From positions 62,001 to 126,000 of the forward strand of contig JAJZZN010000003.1 of NCBI GenBank assembly GCA_021797575.1: a DNA stretch of 64,000 nt, in the 5' to 3' direction. Source of the DNA: Microcaldota archaeon. GTDB taxonomy: Archaea > Micrarchaeota > Micrarchaeia > Micrarchaeales > Micrarchaeaceae. The notes under the pieces are model-generated. The model made no database searches and was not told where the DNA came from. It worked only from the letters and a program-made list of their open reading frames with translations. Position numbers and translations under genes: made by a program. Positions within the stretch are counted from its first letter, which is position 1; the number at the start of each line of letters is the position of its first letter. Shown piece after piece: positions 27,059-57,953 of this stretch.

Positions 27059-27158
27059 TGCGAGGGGTGAGATTTGAACTCACGCAGCCACTAAAGGCAC
27101 AAGAGTTCTGATTTTCATCCTCAGTCTTGCGCATTTGACCATGCTCTGCCACCCTCGC
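27059..27158 (-). tRNA. tRNA-Leu (anticodon GAG) with a 13-nt intron
   Basis: A class II tRNA. Acceptor GCGAGGG (27152-27158) pairs with CCCTCGC (27060-27066), discriminator A at 27059. The anticodon stem is CAAGA/TCTTG, the variable stem GCC/GGC, and the T arm GTGAG-TTCAAAT-CTCAC. The anticodon loop holds 20 nt; removing 27106-27118 (13 nt, canonical 37/38 site) leaves CTGAGGC with anticodon GAG. The intron obeys bulge-helix-bulge rules (helix CTGA/TCAG, bulges GGA and AAC). It lies between rpoD and eL18 with 19 and 18 nt gaps. Confidence 0.93.
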
Positions 27159-49176: not shown

Positions 49177-50403
49177 CTACAGCATTTCAAGGAACTCGGG
49201 GTCTTCCAGATAGCCCTTTATCGCATTACCGAATTTCACTGCCTCCGCGCCGTCTACAACCCTATGGTCGAAGGTCAGCGAGAAAGGCAGCACCTTGCCT
49301 ATGACTATCTTCCCGTCCTTTACTACCGGCATGTCCCTTATGAGGTGCACTCCGAGTATTGCAACATCGGGATAGTTTATCATCGGCACGGAAAGGTATC
49401 CCCCGCCCAAGCTGCCTATGTTGGTTATTGTGAACGATGTATCTGTCATCTCATCTATGCTTATGCTCTTGTCCTTCACCTTTTTGCCCAGCCTCTCTAT
49501 TTCCTGGGCTATTTCGATTATGCTCATCCTGTCTGCTCCTTTTACTACTGCAACCCTGAGCCCGTCATCTGCCTCAGCGGCCAAGCCTATGTTATAGTAC
49601 TTCTTCACTATTACTTCCTGCCTCTCCTTATCGTAACTGGAATTGAACCTTGGATTCTCCTTCAGCGCCTCTATTGTGGCTTTTATTATGAACGGCAGGA
49701 AAGTCAGCTTCACACCAGCATCCTTGGTCTTCTGCTTCTCCTTTTCGACTATATTGAACAAGTGCGTTGCATCTATCAGGTCCATATGTACTGCCCTGGG
49801 TATGGTCCATGAAAGCTCCATATTCCTGGCTATTGCCTTCCTGACCTGGCTCATGGGCTGCCTTTCTATATCCCCTTCGTGCGCCTCCTCCTTCACTTCC
49901 GAGAACTTAGGGACTGGAACGCTGCTCGCCTTTGAAGCGAAGGCCCTGACATCGTTCTCTATTATTCTGCCACTTGGACCTGTGCCAACGACTTTAAATA
50001 TATCAACATTCAAATCGCGCGCAAGCTTTCTGACAGCCGGAGTGGCAAGCACCTCCCTTGCTTCTGCAGCCGCCGCAGGTGCGACTGTTTTCTGAATAGC
50101 TGGCTTCTGCTGTGTTACAGAAGGAGCGTTATTCTGTGCAGCTGAGGCAGGTGGCAAGGATTTCAGCTCGTCTGCAGTGCCGAAATATGCAAGCATATCG
50201 CCAACCTTAACATCGGTGCCGGCTTTAGCCACAATCTTTATCAGCCCCGAAATGGGCGCGGGCAGGTTCACCACGGCCTTATCTGTCTCAACCTGCACCA
50301 CAGGCTGGTCCTCCTTTACTTCCGAGCCATCTTCTACAAGCCACTTCTGTATATGCCCCTCAGTTATCCCTTCTCCAACATCAACGAATTTGATTTCCTT
50401 CAT
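49177..50403 (-). CDS. 2-oxoacid dehydrogenase complex acyltransferase (E2)
   Basis: A 408-residue protein with one lipoyl domain (Lys42 in ETDKAVVN carries lipoate), an Ala/Pro/Gln-rich linker, a peripheral subunit-binding domain (TPAVRKLARDLNVDIFKVVG, then GRIIENDV) and a C-terminal catalytic core ending with HRVVDG (380-385), whose His and Asp are the acyltransfer residues. It forms the complex core. It sits between E1beta and E3; pyruvate or branched-chain specificity cannot be told from sequence by eye. Confidence 0.95.
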   Translation of the reverse strand: MKEIKFVDVGEGITEGHIQKWLVEDGSEVKEDQPVVQVETDKAVVNLPAPISGLIKIVAKAGTDVKVGDMLAYFGTADELKSLPPASAAQNNAPSVTQQKPAIQKTVAPAAAAEAREVLATPAVRKLARDLNVDIFKVVGTGPSGRIIENDVRAFASKASSVPVPKFSEVKEEAHEGDIERQPMSQVRKAIARNMELSWTIPRAVHMDLIDATHLFNIVEKEKQKTKDAGVKLTFLPFIIKATIEALKENPRFNSSYDKERQEVIVKKYYNIGLAAEADDGLRVAVVKGADRMSIIEIAQEIERLGKKVKDKSISIDEMTDTSFTITNIGSLGGGYLSVPMINYPDVAILGVHLIRDMPVVKDGKIVIGKVLPFSLTFDHRVVDGAEAVKFGNAIKGYLEDPEFLEML

Positions 50404-50419
50404 CTAAAGACCCTTAACA

Positions 50420-51385
50420 TCAAGCGCTCAGCAGCCTGTCTATCGCTGCGGATATCTTCTTCTCATTCGGTATGTAATAGTTCTCATATCCAGGCATCGG
50501 GTATGGAAAGCTTGCGGACCCGACCCTGATTATCGGTGCGCTCAAGTCGAACATTGCCTTCTCTGCAACCCTTGCAGCTATCTCCGCACCTACGCCGAAG
50601 CTGAGCACTGCTTCGTGCACAATCAACAGCTTCCCTGTCTTTTTGACGCTCTCCAATATAGTAGCTTCGTCAAGCGGGTTTATGGTCCTAAGGTCTATCA
50701 CATCAGCCGAGAGCTTTTTGTCCTCGACGACCTTGTTCACCACCGGCACCATGGTCCCATATGTCACTACCGTAAACTGGTCGCCTTTCTTCACGTAATT
50801 CGCTTTGCCAATCGGTACATCATATTGCTCTTCCGGCACATCCTGCTTGAACAGCCTGTACAGCTTAGTGGGCTCCAAGAAGAGTACCGGATCATTCATC
50901 TTCAGCGCCGATGTTAGCAGCCCTTTCGCATCGTACGGGTTCGAAGGCTCTACTACTATGAGCCCTCCCACATGCGAATAGAATGCTTCTGGGCTCTCGG
51001 AATGGTGCTCCAATGTCTTGACGCCACCGCTCACCGGAGTCCTCACTACCATAGGCACTGTAAGGTCACCCCTGGTCCTGCTCCTGAATCGAGCGGCATG
51101 GTTTATCAGCTGGCCGAATCCGAGGAACATGAATCCTGCAAACTGTATCTCGGGCACAGGATGAAGGCCAGCCATTGCCATGCCTATCGAAGCCCCTATT
51201 ATGCTCGATTCTGCGAGCGGTGTGTCCAATACCCTGTTCTCGCCGAACTTGTCTAGAAGCCCGTCAGTCACCCTGAATACTCCTCCATCCTTGCCTATGT
51301 CCTCGCCCAGCAGCACTATGCTGTCGTCCTTCCTCATTGCAAGATCCAATGCGTTGTTTATCGCGCCAACCATATTAATGTTCAT
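50420..51385 (-). CDS. 2-oxoacid dehydrogenase E1 component, beta subunit
   Basis: A 321-residue E1beta. NNALDLAMRKDDSIVLLGED, the segment GIGMAMAGLHPVPEIQFAGF-like region (IGASIGMAMAGLHPVPEIQF) and HHSESPEAFYSHV are characteristic; VIDLRTINPLDEATILESV begins the C-terminal transketolase domain. It forms an alpha2beta2 thiamine-diphosphate enzyme with the gene 11 nt upstream and starts oxidative decarboxylation. Confidence 0.95.
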   Translation of the reverse strand: MNINMVGAINNALDLAMRKDDSIVLLGEDIGKDGGVFRVTDGLLDKFGENRVLDTPLAESSIIGASIGMAMAGLHPVPEIQFAGFMFLGFGQLINHAARFRSRTRGDLTVPMVVRTPVSGGVKTLEHHSESPEAFYSHVGGLIVVEPSNPYDAKGLLTSALKMNDPVLFLEPTKLYRLFKQDVPEEQYDVPIGKANYVKKGDQFTVVTYGTMVPVVNKVVEDKKLSADVIDLRTINPLDEATILESVKKTGKLLIVHEAVLSFGVGAEIAARVAEKAMFDLSAPIIRVGSASFPYPMPGYENYYIPNEKKISAAIDRLLSA

Positions 51386-51396
51386 TCAACCACCAC

Positions 51397-52464
51397 TCAC
51401 ATCCAGAAGTTTGATTTGACCGCATCGTCCTCCTCCTCCTTCAAAACCTCCGGAATAAAGCTGTATACATTCTCAAACATGCTCTTCGGGTCGGGCTTGA
51501 AAGCCTCTGCCTTGGCAACCGCTTCGTCTATCCTCGCCATCTGTTCATCCGTGGCCTGTTTCTCCTTGGCATCATCCCAAAGGCCCTTTGCCCTGAGATA
51601 CGCACCCACCCTTTTCAGCGGATCCTTTGCCTTCCATTTGTCTACATCAGCTTCAGGCCTGTACTTCGAAGGGTCGTCAGAAGTTGTGTGCATGCTCATC
51701 CGGTATGTCAAGCACTCTATCACTGTCGGCCCGTCGCGTGCATGGTCTATCGCATCCTTTACCACCTTGTAGACCCCTATCACATCGTTGCCATCAACCT
51801 GCACCCCCTTTATGCCTGCCGCTATGGCTTTCTGGGCGAGCGTCTGCGCTGCAGACTGCCTGTTCCTTGGGACCGATATGGCCCACTGGTTGTTCTCTAT
51901 TATCGATATCATAGGCAGCTTGTTCACGCCTGCAAAGTTTATCGCTTCGTAGAAATCGCCTTCGGAAGTTCCTCCGTCCCCAACAAAAGCTACTACTGCT
52001 ACATCCTTATTTCTATATTTCTGTGCATACGCTATGCCGGCAGCATGCGGCATCTGTGTGCCTACCGGCACTATTACAGGAAGTGCGTTTATCTCCTTAA
52101 CCTTTGAGTTGCCCTCCTCATAACCCTTCCAGTACAAGAAATAGCTCTCCAGAGGCAGCCCCCTGGCGAGGTAGGCTCCATGCTGCCTGAAGTTCGGTAC
52201 AAGGATGTCGTCCTTCCTCATTGCGAACGCCGTGCCTATCTGCGTTGCTTCTTCCCCAACCAGCGGCGCGAACGTATCCGCCCTGCCCTGCCTCTGCAGG
52301 CTGAGCGTCTTTGCATCGAGGTTCCTTGCAAACAGCATGGATTTGTACATCTCAACAATCCTGTCATCGCTAAGATCCTGCGGATAAAGTGACTTGTCTA
52401 TTGCACCATTCTCATCCATCACTTGAAAATAATCTATTGAGCCTTCAAAAGCTTTGTTCTGCAT
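51397..52464 (-). CDS. 2-oxoacid dehydrogenase E1 component, alpha subunit
   Basis: A 355-residue E1alpha. The thiamine-diphosphate/Mg2+ motif GDGGTSEGDFYEAINFAG to ENNQWAIS is complete, and TYRMSMHTTSDDPSKYR is the phosphorylation-loop region of this family. It is the first gene of a five-gene operon E1alpha-E1beta-E2-E3-hydrolase. SD-like GGTT precedes the ATG and a TATA-like site lies about 35 nt upstream. Confidence 0.95.
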   Translation of the reverse strand: MQNKAFEGSIDYFQVMDENGAIDKSLYPQDLSDDRIVEMYKSMLFARNLDAKTLSLQRQGRADTFAPLVGEEATQIGTAFAMRKDDILVPNFRQHGAYLARGLPLESYFLYWKGYEEGNSKVKEINALPVIVPVGTQMPHAAGIAYAQKYRNKDVAVVAFVGDGGTSEGDFYEAINFAGVNKLPMISIIENNQWAISVPRNRQSAAQTLAQKAIAAGIKGVQVDGNDVIGVYKVVKDAIDHARDGPTVIECLTYRMSMHTTSDDPSKYRPEADVDKWKAKDPLKRVGAYLRAKGLWDDAKEKQATDEQMARIDEAVAKAEAFKPDPKSMFENVYSFIPEVLKEEEDDAVKSNFWM

Positions 52465-53191: not shown

Positions 53192-53272
53192 AAAACCTAG
53201 GTTCTATCCCTGTTAAAACTTATATATGTTTACCTGCCTGCATGCAAAGAGTCGCGTTCATGTACAAAAAGG

Positions 53273-53280
53273 TTATAAAG
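53273..53280 (+). promoter_or_regulatory. TATA box of the gatCAB operon
   Basis: GTTATAAAG stands 25-33 nt before the gatC ATG at 53305, predicting a leaderless or nearly leaderless operon transcript. A second TATATAT at about 53219 could drive an alternative longer form. Confidence 0.5.
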
Positions 53281-53304
53281 ATATGCAATCCTAAATGCAA
53301 TCAT

Positions 53305-53595
53305 ATGGTGGATTTTCAAAAGGTCGACAAGGGGATGCTTTCGCGCATATGCTCAAACGCAAAGCTCAATCTGACCAGTTCAGAAGAAGAAAGGTTTGTC
53401 TCTGAGATGGGCGAGATTCTAACTGCTTTCAGGGAGCTGGAAAGCGTCGATACAAAAGATGTACAGCCGGCATATCACGCTACAGAGATAAGGAACATAT
53501 GGCGCGATGACAAGGTGAAGAAGAAAAGCGTCGACATAAAGAAGAACACAGAGGCTTTGGAGAATGGATACATAATCGGGCCCAAGCTCGTTTGA
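53305..53595 (+). CDS. gatC: Asp-tRNA(Asn) amidotransferase subunit C
   Basis: A 96-residue GatC, the strap subunit holding GatA and GatB together. AKLNLTSSEEERFVSEMGEI, LTAFRELESVDTKDVQPAYH and the tail ALENGYIIGPKLV are family features. The ATG at 53305 gives the usual length; longer starts (53242, 53260) would add a tail with CNPKC. The gatA start overlaps its stop codon. First gene of the cluster for indirect Asn-tRNA synthesis. Confidence 0.92.
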   Translation: MVDFQKVDKGMLSRICSNAKLNLTSSEEERFVSEMGEILTAFRELESVDTKDVQPAYHATEIRNIWRDDKVKKKSVDIKKNTEALENGYIIGPKLV

Positions 53596-54998
53596 AAAGG
53601 GTGGTTATATTAATACGTGTAAAAACATTCCTGGAAGAAGTGAAATCCGGCAGCATAGACACAGATAAATTTGTCTCAGATGTTAAAGCTAGTTCTAGCT
53701 CTATGCAGGAGAAATACGCGCCCTTCATAACCCTGAATGAAGGTTTTGGCAAAGCAACGCCGCAGAAAGGAGCGCTGCAATATCTTCCTGTTTCTGTGAA
53801 GGATTGCCTATGTACCGAAGGCATAAGGACCACTGCAGGCTCGAAGATACTTGAGACATACGTGCCCAATTTCGACGCCACGGCAGTAGCGAAGGTGAAG
53901 GCAGCGGGCGGCATGATACTGGGGAAAACTGCTCAGGACGAATTCGGGTTCGGCACATTTTCTACAAACTGCGCCTACCAGGTGCCTAAGAACCCATACG
54001 ATCCTGAAAGAACTTGCGGAGGCAGCAGTGGAGGTGCGGGATGTGCTACTGCAGCAGCAGACTTTCCCCATATAGCAATAGCAGAATCTACCGGGGGCAG
54101 CATAACTGCGCCTGCCGCATTCACAGGCACTGTGGGCTTGACACCAACATACGGAAGGGTATCAAGATACGGCCTGATAGACTACTCAAACAGCATGGAC
54201 AAAGTAGGTGTAATATCCAAGGAGGTATACGATTCAGCCCTTATGCTTTCAGTAATAGCGGGGCACGATCCGCTCGATTCGACCAGCCACAACAAGGGCA
54301 GCGAAGATTTCACAAAGTATATCGGCAAGGATGTCAAGGGCATGAAGATAGGCGTGCCGAAGGAATATTTCAGCAGCATAGACAGCAACGTCAAGAAACT
54401 GGTGGAAGATGCGATTGCCAAGCTTGAAGGGCAGGAGGCAGAGATATCAGAGATTTCATTGCCAAGCACAAAATACGCGATTGCTGCATACTACATAATT
54501 GCAATGGGCGAAGCGTCGACGAACCTGGCCAAGTACTGCGGCATGCGCTACGGCAAGCAGGATAAAATAAGCGGCGAGTTCTCTGAATACTTCTCAAGCA
54601 TACGCTCCAGCGGCTTTGGAGAGGAGGCAAAGAGGCGGATAATATTAGGTACATACATGCGCGCCGCAGGTTTCCGGGATGCATACTATATAAAAGCGCT
54701 GAAGGTGCGCAGCCTACTGATAAAGGAATTCAAGGCAGCATTCAAGGGCGTGGATGCAATAGCGACCCCGTCAATGCCCATGCTGCCCCCAAGGTTTGAT
54801 GAGATAGCCAAGCTCTCGCCTCTGGAAATCTACAACATGGACAAGATGACCACCGCGCCCAACCTGTGCGGCTTCCCAACAATATCCATACCTGTTGGCA
54901 CATCGCAAGGCCTGCCTGTGGGCATGCAATTAATAGCTGATCACTTCATGGAGGGCAGGCTTATAAGCTTAGCCGCAGCTGCAGAGGTGATAAAATGA
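53592..54998 (+). CDS. gatA: Asp-tRNA(Asn) amidotransferase subunit A
   Basis: A 468-residue amidase-signature glutaminase subunit that releases ammonia from glutamine or asparagine. The Ser-cisSer-Lys triad is present: Lys70 in PVSVKD, Ser145/146 in GGSSGGAG and Ser170 in STGGSI. The start is a TTG overlapping the gatC stop (TTGA), or the GTG at 53601; no ATG fits. Ammonia is channelled to GatB. gatB overlaps the stop by 4 nt. Confidence 0.95.
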   Translation: MKRVVILIRVKTFLEEVKSGSIDTDKFVSDVKASSSSMQEKYAPFITLNEGFGKATPQKGALQYLPVSVKDCLCTEGIRTTAGSKILETYVPNFDATAVAKVKAAGGMILGKTAQDEFGFGTFSTNCAYQVPKNPYDPERTCGGSSGGAGCATAAADFPHIAIAESTGGSITAPAAFTGTVGLTPTYGRVSRYGLIDYSNSMDKVGVISKEVYDSALMLSVIAGHDPLDSTSHNKGSEDFTKYIGKDVKGMKIGVPKEYFSSIDSNVKKLVEDAIAKLEGQEAEISEISLPSTKYAIAAYYIIAMGEASTNLAKYCGMRYGKQDKISGEFSEYFSSIRSSGFGEEAKRRIILGTYMRAAGFRDAYYIKALKVRSLLIKEFKAAFKGVDAIATPSMPMLPPRFDEIAKLSPLEIYNMDKMTTAPNLCGFPTISIPVGTSQGLPVGMQLIADHFMEGRLISLAAAAEVIK

Positions 54999-56413
54999 GT
55001 ATAATGATAGGATTGGAAGTCCACTGCCAGCTCAACACTGAGAGCAAGCTCTTCTGTTCGTGCGAAGCGTATCCCAGGGATGCGCAGCCCAACAGCTCCA
55101 CATGCGAGATATGCCTGGGATATCCCGGCACAAAGCCCGTCATAAACAAGAAGGCCATAGACCATGTCATAAGCATAGGGCTGGCATTGGGATGCAGGAT
55201 AAACCCAGAATCATACTTCTCCAGGAAGACATACTTCTATCCTGACATGCCTAAGAACTATCAGATTACGCAATACGAAGTTCCTATAGCGTCCGAAGGC
55301 TCGATAGAGGTCAACGGGATGAGGATAAGGATAAGGAGGGTGCATCTTGAGGAGGATCCTGCAAGGATAGTATATGCAGACGGGAATCTTGAGACAGCAA
55401 GCCATGTGCTTGTGGATTACAACCGCGCCGGCACGCCCCTGGCAGAGATAGTGACTGAGCCTGACATGAAGAGCCCCAAGGAAGCGAGAGCTTTCCTCGA
55501 GAAGCTCTCAACGATATTGGAATACCTGAAGGTGTATGACCAGTCGAAAGGTGCATCGTTGCGAGTTGATGCGAACATTTCGGTTGATGGAGGGGAGAGG
55601 GCAGAAGTGAAAAACGTTACCGGATTCGAGAATGTCGAGAAGGCATTGAACTACGAAGCAGTTAGGCAGCAGAACATAGTGAGGCTGGGGAGGAAAGTAG
55701 AGAGGGAGACGAGGCACTTCGACGAGGTCGCAAAGACGACAAGGACATTGAGGAAGAAGGAATTCGAGGAGGATTACGGATACATATTCGACCCCGATCT
55801 TCCTGTGCTCGACATATCAGACGAGTGGAAAAGCAAAATAGAAAAAGGAATGCCGGAGCTGCCCGACATCATGGTGAAGCGCTTCTTAAAGCAGTACGGT
55901 ATAAGCGAGTACGATGCAAAGGTTATAGTTTACACTGGCAAGGATTTCGCATCATTCTTCGAGGACGTATGCAGGATATACAGCAAGCCGAAGGCTGCAT
56001 CCAGGTGGATGATAAACTACCTCCTCAAGAGCCTCAACTGGAGGTCGGAGCGCATATCGCAGTCAAAGGCATCGCCCGATACCTTCTCTGAGCTGCTCAC
56101 CATGATAGACAAGGGCGAGATAACAGAAAGATATGCCAAGGAGCTCATAAAGGAATATGTTGATACAGGCTTGCGCCCCTCAGAGATTGCATTGAAGTCC
56201 GGTGCAAAGCCCTCATTGCAGGGCCTAAGGGATATAGTTAAAAAGGTTATAAAAGATAATACCAAAGCCGCGTCTGAATTCGCCGCAGGTAAAAACGATG
56301 CGCTCGCATACCTGATAGGCGCGGTGCTCAAGGAGACAGGCAAGCGGGGAGATCCAAAGGAAATAGCGAGAATGATAAAAGAAGAGATATCAAATGCCTC
56401 TGTAGCTCAGTAG
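54995..56413 (+). CDS. gatB: Asp-tRNA(Asn) amidotransferase subunit B
   Basis: A 472-residue GatB, which binds misacylated tRNA and performs the kinase and transamidation steps. IGLEVHCQLNTESKLFC, CEICLGYPG, YFYPDMPKNYQITQY and RIRRVHLEEDPAR are hallmark segments; the helical and tail (YqeY-like) domains follow (LKETGKRGDPKEIARMIKEE). The C-terminal Ala-Ser-Val-Ala-Gln and the TAG stop are encoded by the first 18 nt of the tRNA-Asn gene. Confidence 0.96.
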   Translation: MSIMIGLEVHCQLNTESKLFCSCEAYPRDAQPNSSTCEICLGYPGTKPVINKKAIDHVISIGLALGCRINPESYFSRKTYFYPDMPKNYQITQYEVPIASEGSIEVNGMRIRIRRVHLEEDPARIVYADGNLETASHVLVDYNRAGTPLAEIVTEPDMKSPKEARAFLEKLSTILEYLKVYDQSKGASLRVDANISVDGGERAEVKNVTGFENVEKALNYEAVRQQNIVRLGRKVERETRHFDEVAKTTRTLRKKEFEEDYGYIFDPDLPVLDISDEWKSKIEKGMPELPDIMVKRFLKQYGISEYDAKVIVYTGKDFASFFEDVCRIYSKPKAASRWMINYLLKSLNWRSERISQSKASPDTFSELLTMIDKGEITERYAKELIKEYVDTGLRPSEIALKSGAKPSLQGLRDIVKKVIKDNTKAASEFAAGKNDALAYLIGAVLKETGKRGDPKEIARMIKEEISNASVAQ

Positions 56414-56468
56414 GTAGAGCGAGCGGCTGTTAACCGCTAGGTCGTAGGTTCGAGTCCTACCGGAGGCG
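56396..56468 (+). tRNA. tRNA-Asn (anticodon GTT), overlapping the gatB stop
   Basis: Acceptor GCCTCTG pairs with CGGAGGC (56461-56467), discriminator G. D stem GCTC/GAGC, anticodon arm AGCGG-CTGTTAA-CCGCT gives GTT, T arm GTAGG-TTCGAGT-CCTAC. No intron. The first 18 nt are in frame with gatB and encode its last five residues and stop. aspS begins 18 nt after the 3' end. It must be cut from the gat-aspS transcript, which would remove the 3' end of gatB coding sequence. Confidence 0.96.
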
Positions 56469-56486
56469 TAATATTTGGGTAATGTC

Positions 56487-57815
56487 ATGGAAGGCACAGA
56501 TGGCTGGTCGAGGACATGCAGGCTTGGAGAAGTAACTAAGGAGATGAATGGCGAGCCAGTCACGGTTATGGGGTTCGTCAGGGAGATACGCGACGTAGGC
56601 AAGCTCAAGTTCGTACTTCTTGCTGATATAACCGGCACCATGCAGGTAACATTCAAGGAAGGCACAAAGGCCTTCAATGCTGTAAGTGATATTACTAGGG
56701 AATCCGCTATAGGCGTAAAAGGCACGGTAAGCGCTGGAGGCAGGGCAGCATCTGGCATAGAGATAATACCGGACGAGATAAAAGTGTTTTCAAGGGCAGA
56801 ACCAAAGCTGCCCATACAGGTCTACGGCAAGACAGATGCGCTGCTTGATACAAGGATGGACTGGCGCTTCCTAGACATAAGGAAGCCGAAGAACGCGCTA
56901 ATATTCAAGGTGCAGACCACTATAGAAGCAGCCATGCGCGAATACTGGATAAAGCAGGGATTCATAGAGATACATTCGCCGAAGCTGATGGGAGCGCCGA
57001 GCGAAAGCGGTGCAGAGCTTTTTCCGGTGATATACTTTGACAAGACTGCGTTCCTTGCACAGTCGCCGCAGTTCTACAAGCAGATGGCAATATGCGCAGG
57101 CTTGGACAGGGTATTCGAGATAGGCCCCGTATTCAGGGCAGAGCCATCAAACACCACGAGGCATGCCACGGAATTCACCTCTGTAGACATGGAGATGGCG
57201 TGGATAGAGTCGCATGAGGATATCATGAAATTCGAGGAGGAATGGATTGTGCACGTGATGGGCAGGGTAAAGGAAGAGCATGGCGACGAGATAAAAGACT
57301 TGTACGGGCTAGAAGTTAACATACCAAGCACACCATTCCCAAGGATATCATTCAGGGAAGCCAAGGATGTGCTCAAGCAATCCGGAAAGGGCTCTAAGGA
57401 GGAGAATGACATATCCTCAGAAGAAGAAAAGGCAATAGGCGAAATGGCCATGGAAAAATATGGCAGCGAATTCATTTTCGTCAAGGAATATCCATGGAGC
57501 ATAAAGCCTTTTTACCACATGCGCAAAGAGGATGATCCATCAGTAACAAAGGGCTATGACTTGCTCTATAAAGGGCTTGAGGTGACAACGGGCTCGCAGA
57601 GGGAGCACAGGTATGATATACTGATGAAGCAGGCGAAGGAGAAAGGCCTGAGCGAAGATAATGTAGGGTTCTATACAGACTTCTTCAGGTACGGAGCTCC
57701 GCCGCATGGAGGCTTCGGCTTCGGCCTCTCAAGGCTGGTCAAGCAGATGCTTAATATAGAGAACATAAGGGAGGCGATGTTCGCTTTCAGGGACATGAAG
57801 CGCCTTTTCCCATGA
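56487..57815 (+). CDS. aspS: Aspartyl-tRNA synthetase, archaeal type, predicted non-discriminating
   Basis: A 442-residue class IIb synthetase from the ATG at 56487 (a TTG four codons earlier is weaker). An OB-fold anticodon domain is followed by the catalytic core with motif 2 FRAEPSNTTRHATEFTSVDM and motif 3 GAPPHGGFGFGLSRLVKQM. Compared from memory with the discriminating Thermococcus enzyme, Trp26 and Lys85, which exclude tRNA-Asn, correspond to Arg32 and Ala88. Together with gatCAB and tRNA-Asn next door, this suggests it charges both tRNA-Asp and tRNA-Asn with Asp. Confidence 0.95.
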   Translation: MEGTDGWSRTCRLGEVTKEMNGEPVTVMGFVREIRDVGKLKFVLLADITGTMQVTFKEGTKAFNAVSDITRESAIGVKGTVSAGGRAASGIEIIPDEIKVFSRAEPKLPIQVYGKTDALLDTRMDWRFLDIRKPKNALIFKVQTTIEAAMREYWIKQGFIEIHSPKLMGAPSESGAELFPVIYFDKTAFLAQSPQFYKQMAICAGLDRVFEIGPVFRAEPSNTTRHATEFTSVDMEMAWIESHEDIMKFEEEWIVHVMGRVKEEHGDEIKDLYGLEVNIPSTPFPRISFREAKDVLKQSGKGSKEENDISSEEEKAIGEMAMEKYGSEFIFVKEYPWSIKPFYHMRKEDDPSVTKGYDLLYKGLEVTTGSQREHRYDILMKQAKEKGLSEDNVGFYTDFFRYGAPPHGGFGFGLSRLVKQMLNIENIREAMFAFRDMKRLFP

Positions 57816-57881
57816 GCCGCAAGTCCTGCAATAATGGCAAAGCATAATAAATGTTGGCTAAAATAGTAATATGCTTATTGC

Positions 57882-57953
57882 GCCTCGGTGGTGTAGTGGT
57901 TAGCATACGAGCCTGTCACGCTTGCGACTCGGGTTCGAATCCCGACCGAGGCG
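57882..57953 (+). tRNA. tRNA-Asp (anticodon GTC)
   Basis: Acceptor GCCTCGG pairs with CCGAGGC (57946-57952), discriminator G. Anticodon arm CGAGC-CTGTCAC-GCTTG gives GTC; T arm TCGGG-TTCGAAT-CCCGA. No intron. It lies 66 nt after aspS; a weak TATA-like GCTAAAATAG at about 57857 may serve it. Its acceptor shares GCCTC and G73 with tRNA-Asn. Confidence 0.95.

Follow-up and report, generated by a model that had tools for sequence, protein, structure and literature searches.

A putative cassette for tRNA-dependent asparagine synthesis, with its own tRNA-Asn, beside AsnRS in a micrarchaeal genome

The window, a stretch of 64,000 nucleotides from contig JAJZZN010000003.1 of a Microcaldota archaeon, carries on its plus strand the gene order gatC-gatA-gatB-tRNA-Asn(GUU)-aspS-tRNA-Asp, as originally predicted from the letters and now borne out by profile searches, ARAGORN and Rfam. 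The equivalogs for all three GatCAB subunits are found together: gatC (53305..53595, with the frame also open from 53242) matches TIGR00135 at 56.4 bits (cut-off 47.1), gatB (54995..56413) lies above the cut-offs of both NF004012 and TIGR00133, and gatA (53592..54998), at 454.7 bits against TIGR00132, slightly below the cut-off of 481.1, is the best gatA match. In an alignment to Aquifex GatA (3h0l), the catalytic Lys-Ser-Ser motifs VKD, GGSSGG, and STGGS are intact. The tRNA-Asn, 73 nt long and here called type A, occupies 56396..56468 by Rfam (ARAGORN pads the ends to 56395-56469); at 73.8 bits it is the top-scoring of the 29 RF00005 tRNA matches in the genome, and its anticodon stem differs by compensatory changes from that of the same-genus genome G330. 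Behind it lies aspS2 (56487..57815), an archaeal-type AspRS gene above the cut-offs of NF003483 (540 bits) and TIGR00458 (459 bits), for which the ATG at 56487 is a more likely start than the TTG at 56475, from which the frame is also open. The tRNA-Asp(GUC) (57882..57953), was called by ARAGORN and Rfam, and no other tRNA-Asp turned up in the genome. The 4-nt overlaps of gatC/gatA (TTGA) and gatA/gatB (ATGA) and the 18-nt spacing from tRNA-Asn to the aspS ATG, both part of the original prediction, are correct on the coordinates; a further 66 nt separate aspS from tRNA-Asp. Beside the cassette, on the opposite strand, are genes for pyruvate dehydrogenase-type E1 alpha, E1 beta, and E2 (49177-52464, minus strand), and elsewhere in the window an RF00005 match at 27059-27158 (minus strand) marks an intron-bearing tRNA missed by the default ARAGORN scan.

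A gatB of this kind occurs in 22 of the 85 genomes of the family, and 21 of these cassettes are assessable, one being left out because its contig breaks off inside gatB. Comparison of the gene order in these relatives finds tRNA-Asn directly behind gatB in 20/21, starting anywhere from 18 nt before to 33 nt after the gatB stop; in G306, no tRNA-Asn lies in the 126 nt between gatB and the contig end. In the bacterial control, tRNA-Asn is within 500 nt of gatB in none of 75 loci. The linkage is not chance. The aspS gene follows directly in the window genome, G115, G014, and G013, while other relatives have gatCAB-tRNA-Asn without aspS; in G014 (L039:9290-12046, plus strand) asnS comes after the cassette aspS, so that genes of the direct and indirect asparagine routes adjoin. 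Several Aenigmatarchaeota also have tRNA-Asn 7-45 nt behind gatB, and in the GatB tree, in which several supports are moderate, Aenigmatarchaeota and Bathyarchaeota group with this family rather than with the other families of its phylum, a placement consistent with transfer of the cassette from one archaeal lineage to another. Members of the class that are more distant (L050:5714-5791, L051:6063-6177, L055, L044) have a tRNA-Asn, often intron-bearing, upstream of gatC and not behind gatB. A different, long-branch gatCAB adjoins a bacterial-type AspRS in the sister family f2 and in some f1 genomes (L063:3662-5449, minus strand, TIGR00459 596 bits; similarly L057, L059, L061, L062, L066, L069, L072-L074, L077-L080, and L082), apparently a separate acquisition; Thermus is the reverse case, an archaeal AspRS having been taken up there.

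The cassette gatB does not stop before the tRNA, a feature absent from the original prediction. Its last six codons, GCC TCT GTA GCT CAG TAG (ASVAQ*), are positions 1-18 of tRNA-Asn, an overlap of 18 nt, with the TAG stop (56411-56413) at tRNA positions 16-18. Genome-wide, none of the other overlaps among the 27 tRNAs involves a supported upstream gene, the sole one being with an unsupported 119-aa ORF. The stop lies inside the tRNA in 10 of the 21 assessable family cassettes, in two reading registers: TAG at positions 16-18 (the window genome, G330, G042, G317, and G017), and TAG as U8-A9-G10 (G115, G014, G320, G135, and G319). One Bathyarchaeota locus (L175) has the first register and the same gatB end, NASVAQ*. 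A candidate overlap in G016 (L045) was ruled out by an in-frame TAA before the tRNA. Since the register differs among near relatives (the window genome against G115 and G014), it has either originated more than once or persisted across changes of frame.

For promoters, we built a TATA-like model from the 26 tRNA genes of the genome other than the cassette tRNA-Asn and used leave-one-out scoring. The cassette tRNA-Asn has the lowest score of the 27 tRNAs, −5.2, at the low end of the scores from coding sequence, whereas all others score at least 0.2; relatives show a mixed pattern. aspS2 has no TATA-like box, while gatC and tRNA-Asp each have one; that of gatC (GGTTATAAAGATA, 53270..53282, plus strand) is identical in the same-genus G330, and its position implies an almost leaderless message. 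Lacking the box of the other tRNAs, tRNA-Asn probably arises by processing of the gatB message. The pattern points to gatCAB-tRNA-Asn-aspS as a single transcript, and so fits most of the unit originally proposed; tRNA-Asp, with its own TATA-like box, probably lies outside it as a separate transcription unit.

Cutting the tRNA from the message would leave gatB without its stop codon. One could read this as a regulatory switch, in which the 5′-end cut of tRNA-Asn would strip the stop, ribosomes completing gatB would prevent the tRNA from folding and being cut out, and each transcript would serve as gatB message or as tRNA-Asn source, never both; GatCAB levels would then be coupled to the availability of the substrate tRNA. 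We consider such a switch decidedly unlikely. The fixed position of the overlap in two registers asks how one archaeal transcript can serve as a complete gatB message and also give rise to a mature tRNA.

The genome (659 kb, 34 contigs, 76.8% complete) encodes a second route to Asn-tRNA. The original prediction had read the cassette as a route used where AsnRS is missing; a search for asnS instead finds one on contig C22 (L003; TIGR00457 430 bits, cut-off 342.6), with the archaeal-type AsnRS 1x54 as the best PDB match. It is 70-78% identical to the AsnRS of relatives and similar in GC, which rules out a contaminant and marks the gene as resident. A second AspRS (AspRS1, L002) is on C28 and a second, different tRNA-Asn (L086) on C8. 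Directly upstream of the resident aspS is an intron-bearing tRNA (L103, C28:13206-13324, minus strand) that ARAGORN assigns to Ser, with a spliced anticodon CAT. Asparagine synthetase was found neither by PF00733 nor as a short AsnRS-like gene, and the profile search for GatE, proposed with the original prediction, likewise found none; both absences are weak in a 77%-complete genome.

Of the 146 genomes compared, 27 are without AsnRS and 119 have it; GatB occurs in 20 of the former and 28 of the latter (p = 1e-6, phylogeny ignored). In the 77 genomes of f1 and f2, a strong AsnB never occurs with GatB (0/35 vs. 7/42; Fisher p = 0.014, phylogeny again ignored), and no convincing asparagine synthetase was found in the cassette-bearing relatives. 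Most family genomes without GatB also have no asparagine synthetase, so their asparagine may come from a host.

The two tRNA-Asn genes belong to distinct types. Type A, that of the cassette, is 73 nt long with the D-loop AGYAGGTA; type B, the resident one, is 72 nt long with the D-loop ARYGGTA and mostly the acceptor stem GCCCGAA. The phylum sample includes 47 f1 genomes. Of these, 12 carry type A, always together with a gatCAB of this kind, and about 40 carry type B, the anticodons having been verified in a subset; seven genomes have both, and five have type A alone, three of these without AsnRS. Within the family cassettes, none of the three AsnRS-lacking genomes has type B. A role of type B as a tRNA for AsnRS only fails in the sister family f2 and in G041. 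Compared with the genome's own tRNA-Asp, the type A acceptor stem is alike in 12 of 14 bases and type B in 6 of 14, a suggestive resemblance that would suit charging by an AspRS. Both tRNA-Asn of the genome begin with G1-C72 and neither carries U1-A72, the bacterial GatCAB signature; this bacterial rule may not be applicable to archaeal GatCAB.

The cassette AspRS, of 442-446 aa depending on the start codon, is of the archaeal type without the GAD insertion (best PDB match 3nel/1b8a), and in our tree falls in the AspRS2 clade, apart from the resident AspRS1. At positions 26 and 85 of the anticodon-binding domain (T. kodakarensis numbering), which we take to be the sites separating discriminating from non-discriminating enzymes, it has R/A and AspRS1 has H/K; the known non-discriminating enzymes 1wyd and 1n9w both have H/P, and the discriminating 3nel has W/K. 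The claim that the enzyme lacks the residues excluding tRNA-Asn thus holds for Lys85 of the discriminating T. kodakarensis enzyme, replaced here by alanine, but R26/A85 fits neither W/K nor the non-discriminating His26/Pro85. Loss of Lys85 in the cassette enzyme and its retention in AspRS1 are in line with a split of labour. As a clean classifier, the two residues fail: AsnRS-lacking genomes show no consistent Pro85 or loss of Lys85, and G031 and G138, without AsnRS, show only a Lys85-type AspRS. Ala85 alone is no proof of dual charging, since G107 combines AsnRS and an Ala85 AspRS without GatB, and G131 has an AspRS2 (L344, contig C7) without GatB, with no gatCAB or tRNA-Asn nearby, in a genome with AsnRS and AspRS1. 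In G016 (94% complete), which has GatCAB and no AsnRS, the sole AspRS is of the AspRS2 type with E/G at 26/85, and it must charge both tRNAs if the genome is complete enough.

We believe that the cassette is probably a self-contained system for tRNA-dependent asparagine synthesis beside the direct AsnRS route. A single promoter before gatC would drive gatC-gatA-gatB-tRNA-Asn-aspS2, and tRNA-Asn would be cut out of the message. AspRS2 would load aspartate onto type A tRNA-Asn and onto tRNA-Asp, and GatCAB would amidate the aspartate on the type A tRNA to give Asn-tRNA, a source of asparagine without asparagine synthetase, and this supply would be its purpose. Resident AsnRS, AspRS1, and type B tRNA-Asn would form the direct route.

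That the cassette is instead a relic or replacement, with the direct route doing the work, AspRS2 serving as a spare enzyme, and GatCAB retained by accident or used only now and then, appears fairly unlikely. AsnRS and AspRS1 are indeed present, several genomes show no AspRS other than an AspRS2-type enzyme, and in G131 such an enzyme occurs without GatB; intact GatA motifs, linkage to tRNA-Asn in 20/21 cassettes, and compensatory changes in the tRNA stem all argue against this reading. Still less probable, and in our judgement very unlikely, is a GatCAB that makes Gln-tRNA because GatDE is missing: GatE was indeed not found in this 77%-complete genome, but it is near-universal across the other genomes of the phylum, so its absence here is probably an assembly gap; moreover, tRNA-Gln (L100) begins with A1, the archaeal GatDE-type pattern, and the tRNA to which the cassette is linked is for Asn, not Gln. 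A cassette acting as the only source of Asn-tRNA, as in AsnRS-less archaea, does describe some relatives, namely G016, G031, and G138, which have GatCAB, type A tRNA-Asn alone, and no AsnRS match, but is extremely improbable for the window genome, with its resident AsnRS and second tRNA-Asn.

On the favoured reading of a self-contained cassette beside the direct route, genomes already able to charge tRNA-Asn directly have gained an indirect asparagine route as a single compact gene unit that includes a tRNA of its own. The reasons for maintaining two routes, and the possible reservation of a tRNA type for one of them, thereby become accessible to experiment. Neither the enzymes nor the pathway is new. 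The tRNA belonging to the cassette, its linkage in several archaeal lineages, and the gatB stop codon within it seem not to have been described before, and we found no paper in the open-licence literature searched that describes the cassette or the gatB-tRNA-Asn overlap.

Archaeal GatCAB is an Asp-specific amidotransferase (PMC9499178), and the GatCAB and non-discriminating AspRS of Methanothermobacter and Sulfolobus resemble the present system in this Asp-specific GatCAB and in an archaeal-type AspRS without the GAD domain (PMC9499178); those archaea have no AsnRS, whereas the window genome does. Clostridium acetobutylicum has redundant direct and indirect asparagine routes with an extra AspRS and GatCAB, as here, but it differs in being bacterial, in T-box riboswitch control, and in having asparagine synthetase (Saad et al. 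2012, 2013, as cited in PMC4206432). The Asn-transamidosome of T. thermophilus (PDB 3kfu) is built of the same three components, with GatA, GatB, and AspRS2 homologous to those encoded in the cassette. The closest likeness is to the dual system of Deinococcus radiodurans and Thermus thermophilus, in which AsnRS and a discriminating AspRS stand beside GatCAB and a second, archaeal-type non-discriminating AspRS2, asparagine is made on the tRNA, and the indirect route supplies it (PMC4206432). The window genome shares with these AsnRS, two AspRS, and GatCAB, and may also resemble them in having no asparagine synthetase, none having been detected in the 77% of the genome that is available. Unlike them, it has a tRNA-Asn with G1-C72 in place of the bacterial U1-A72, the host is an archaeon, and a tRNA-Asn distinct from the resident one is part of the cassette, lying between gatB and aspS, with gatB ending inside that tRNA.
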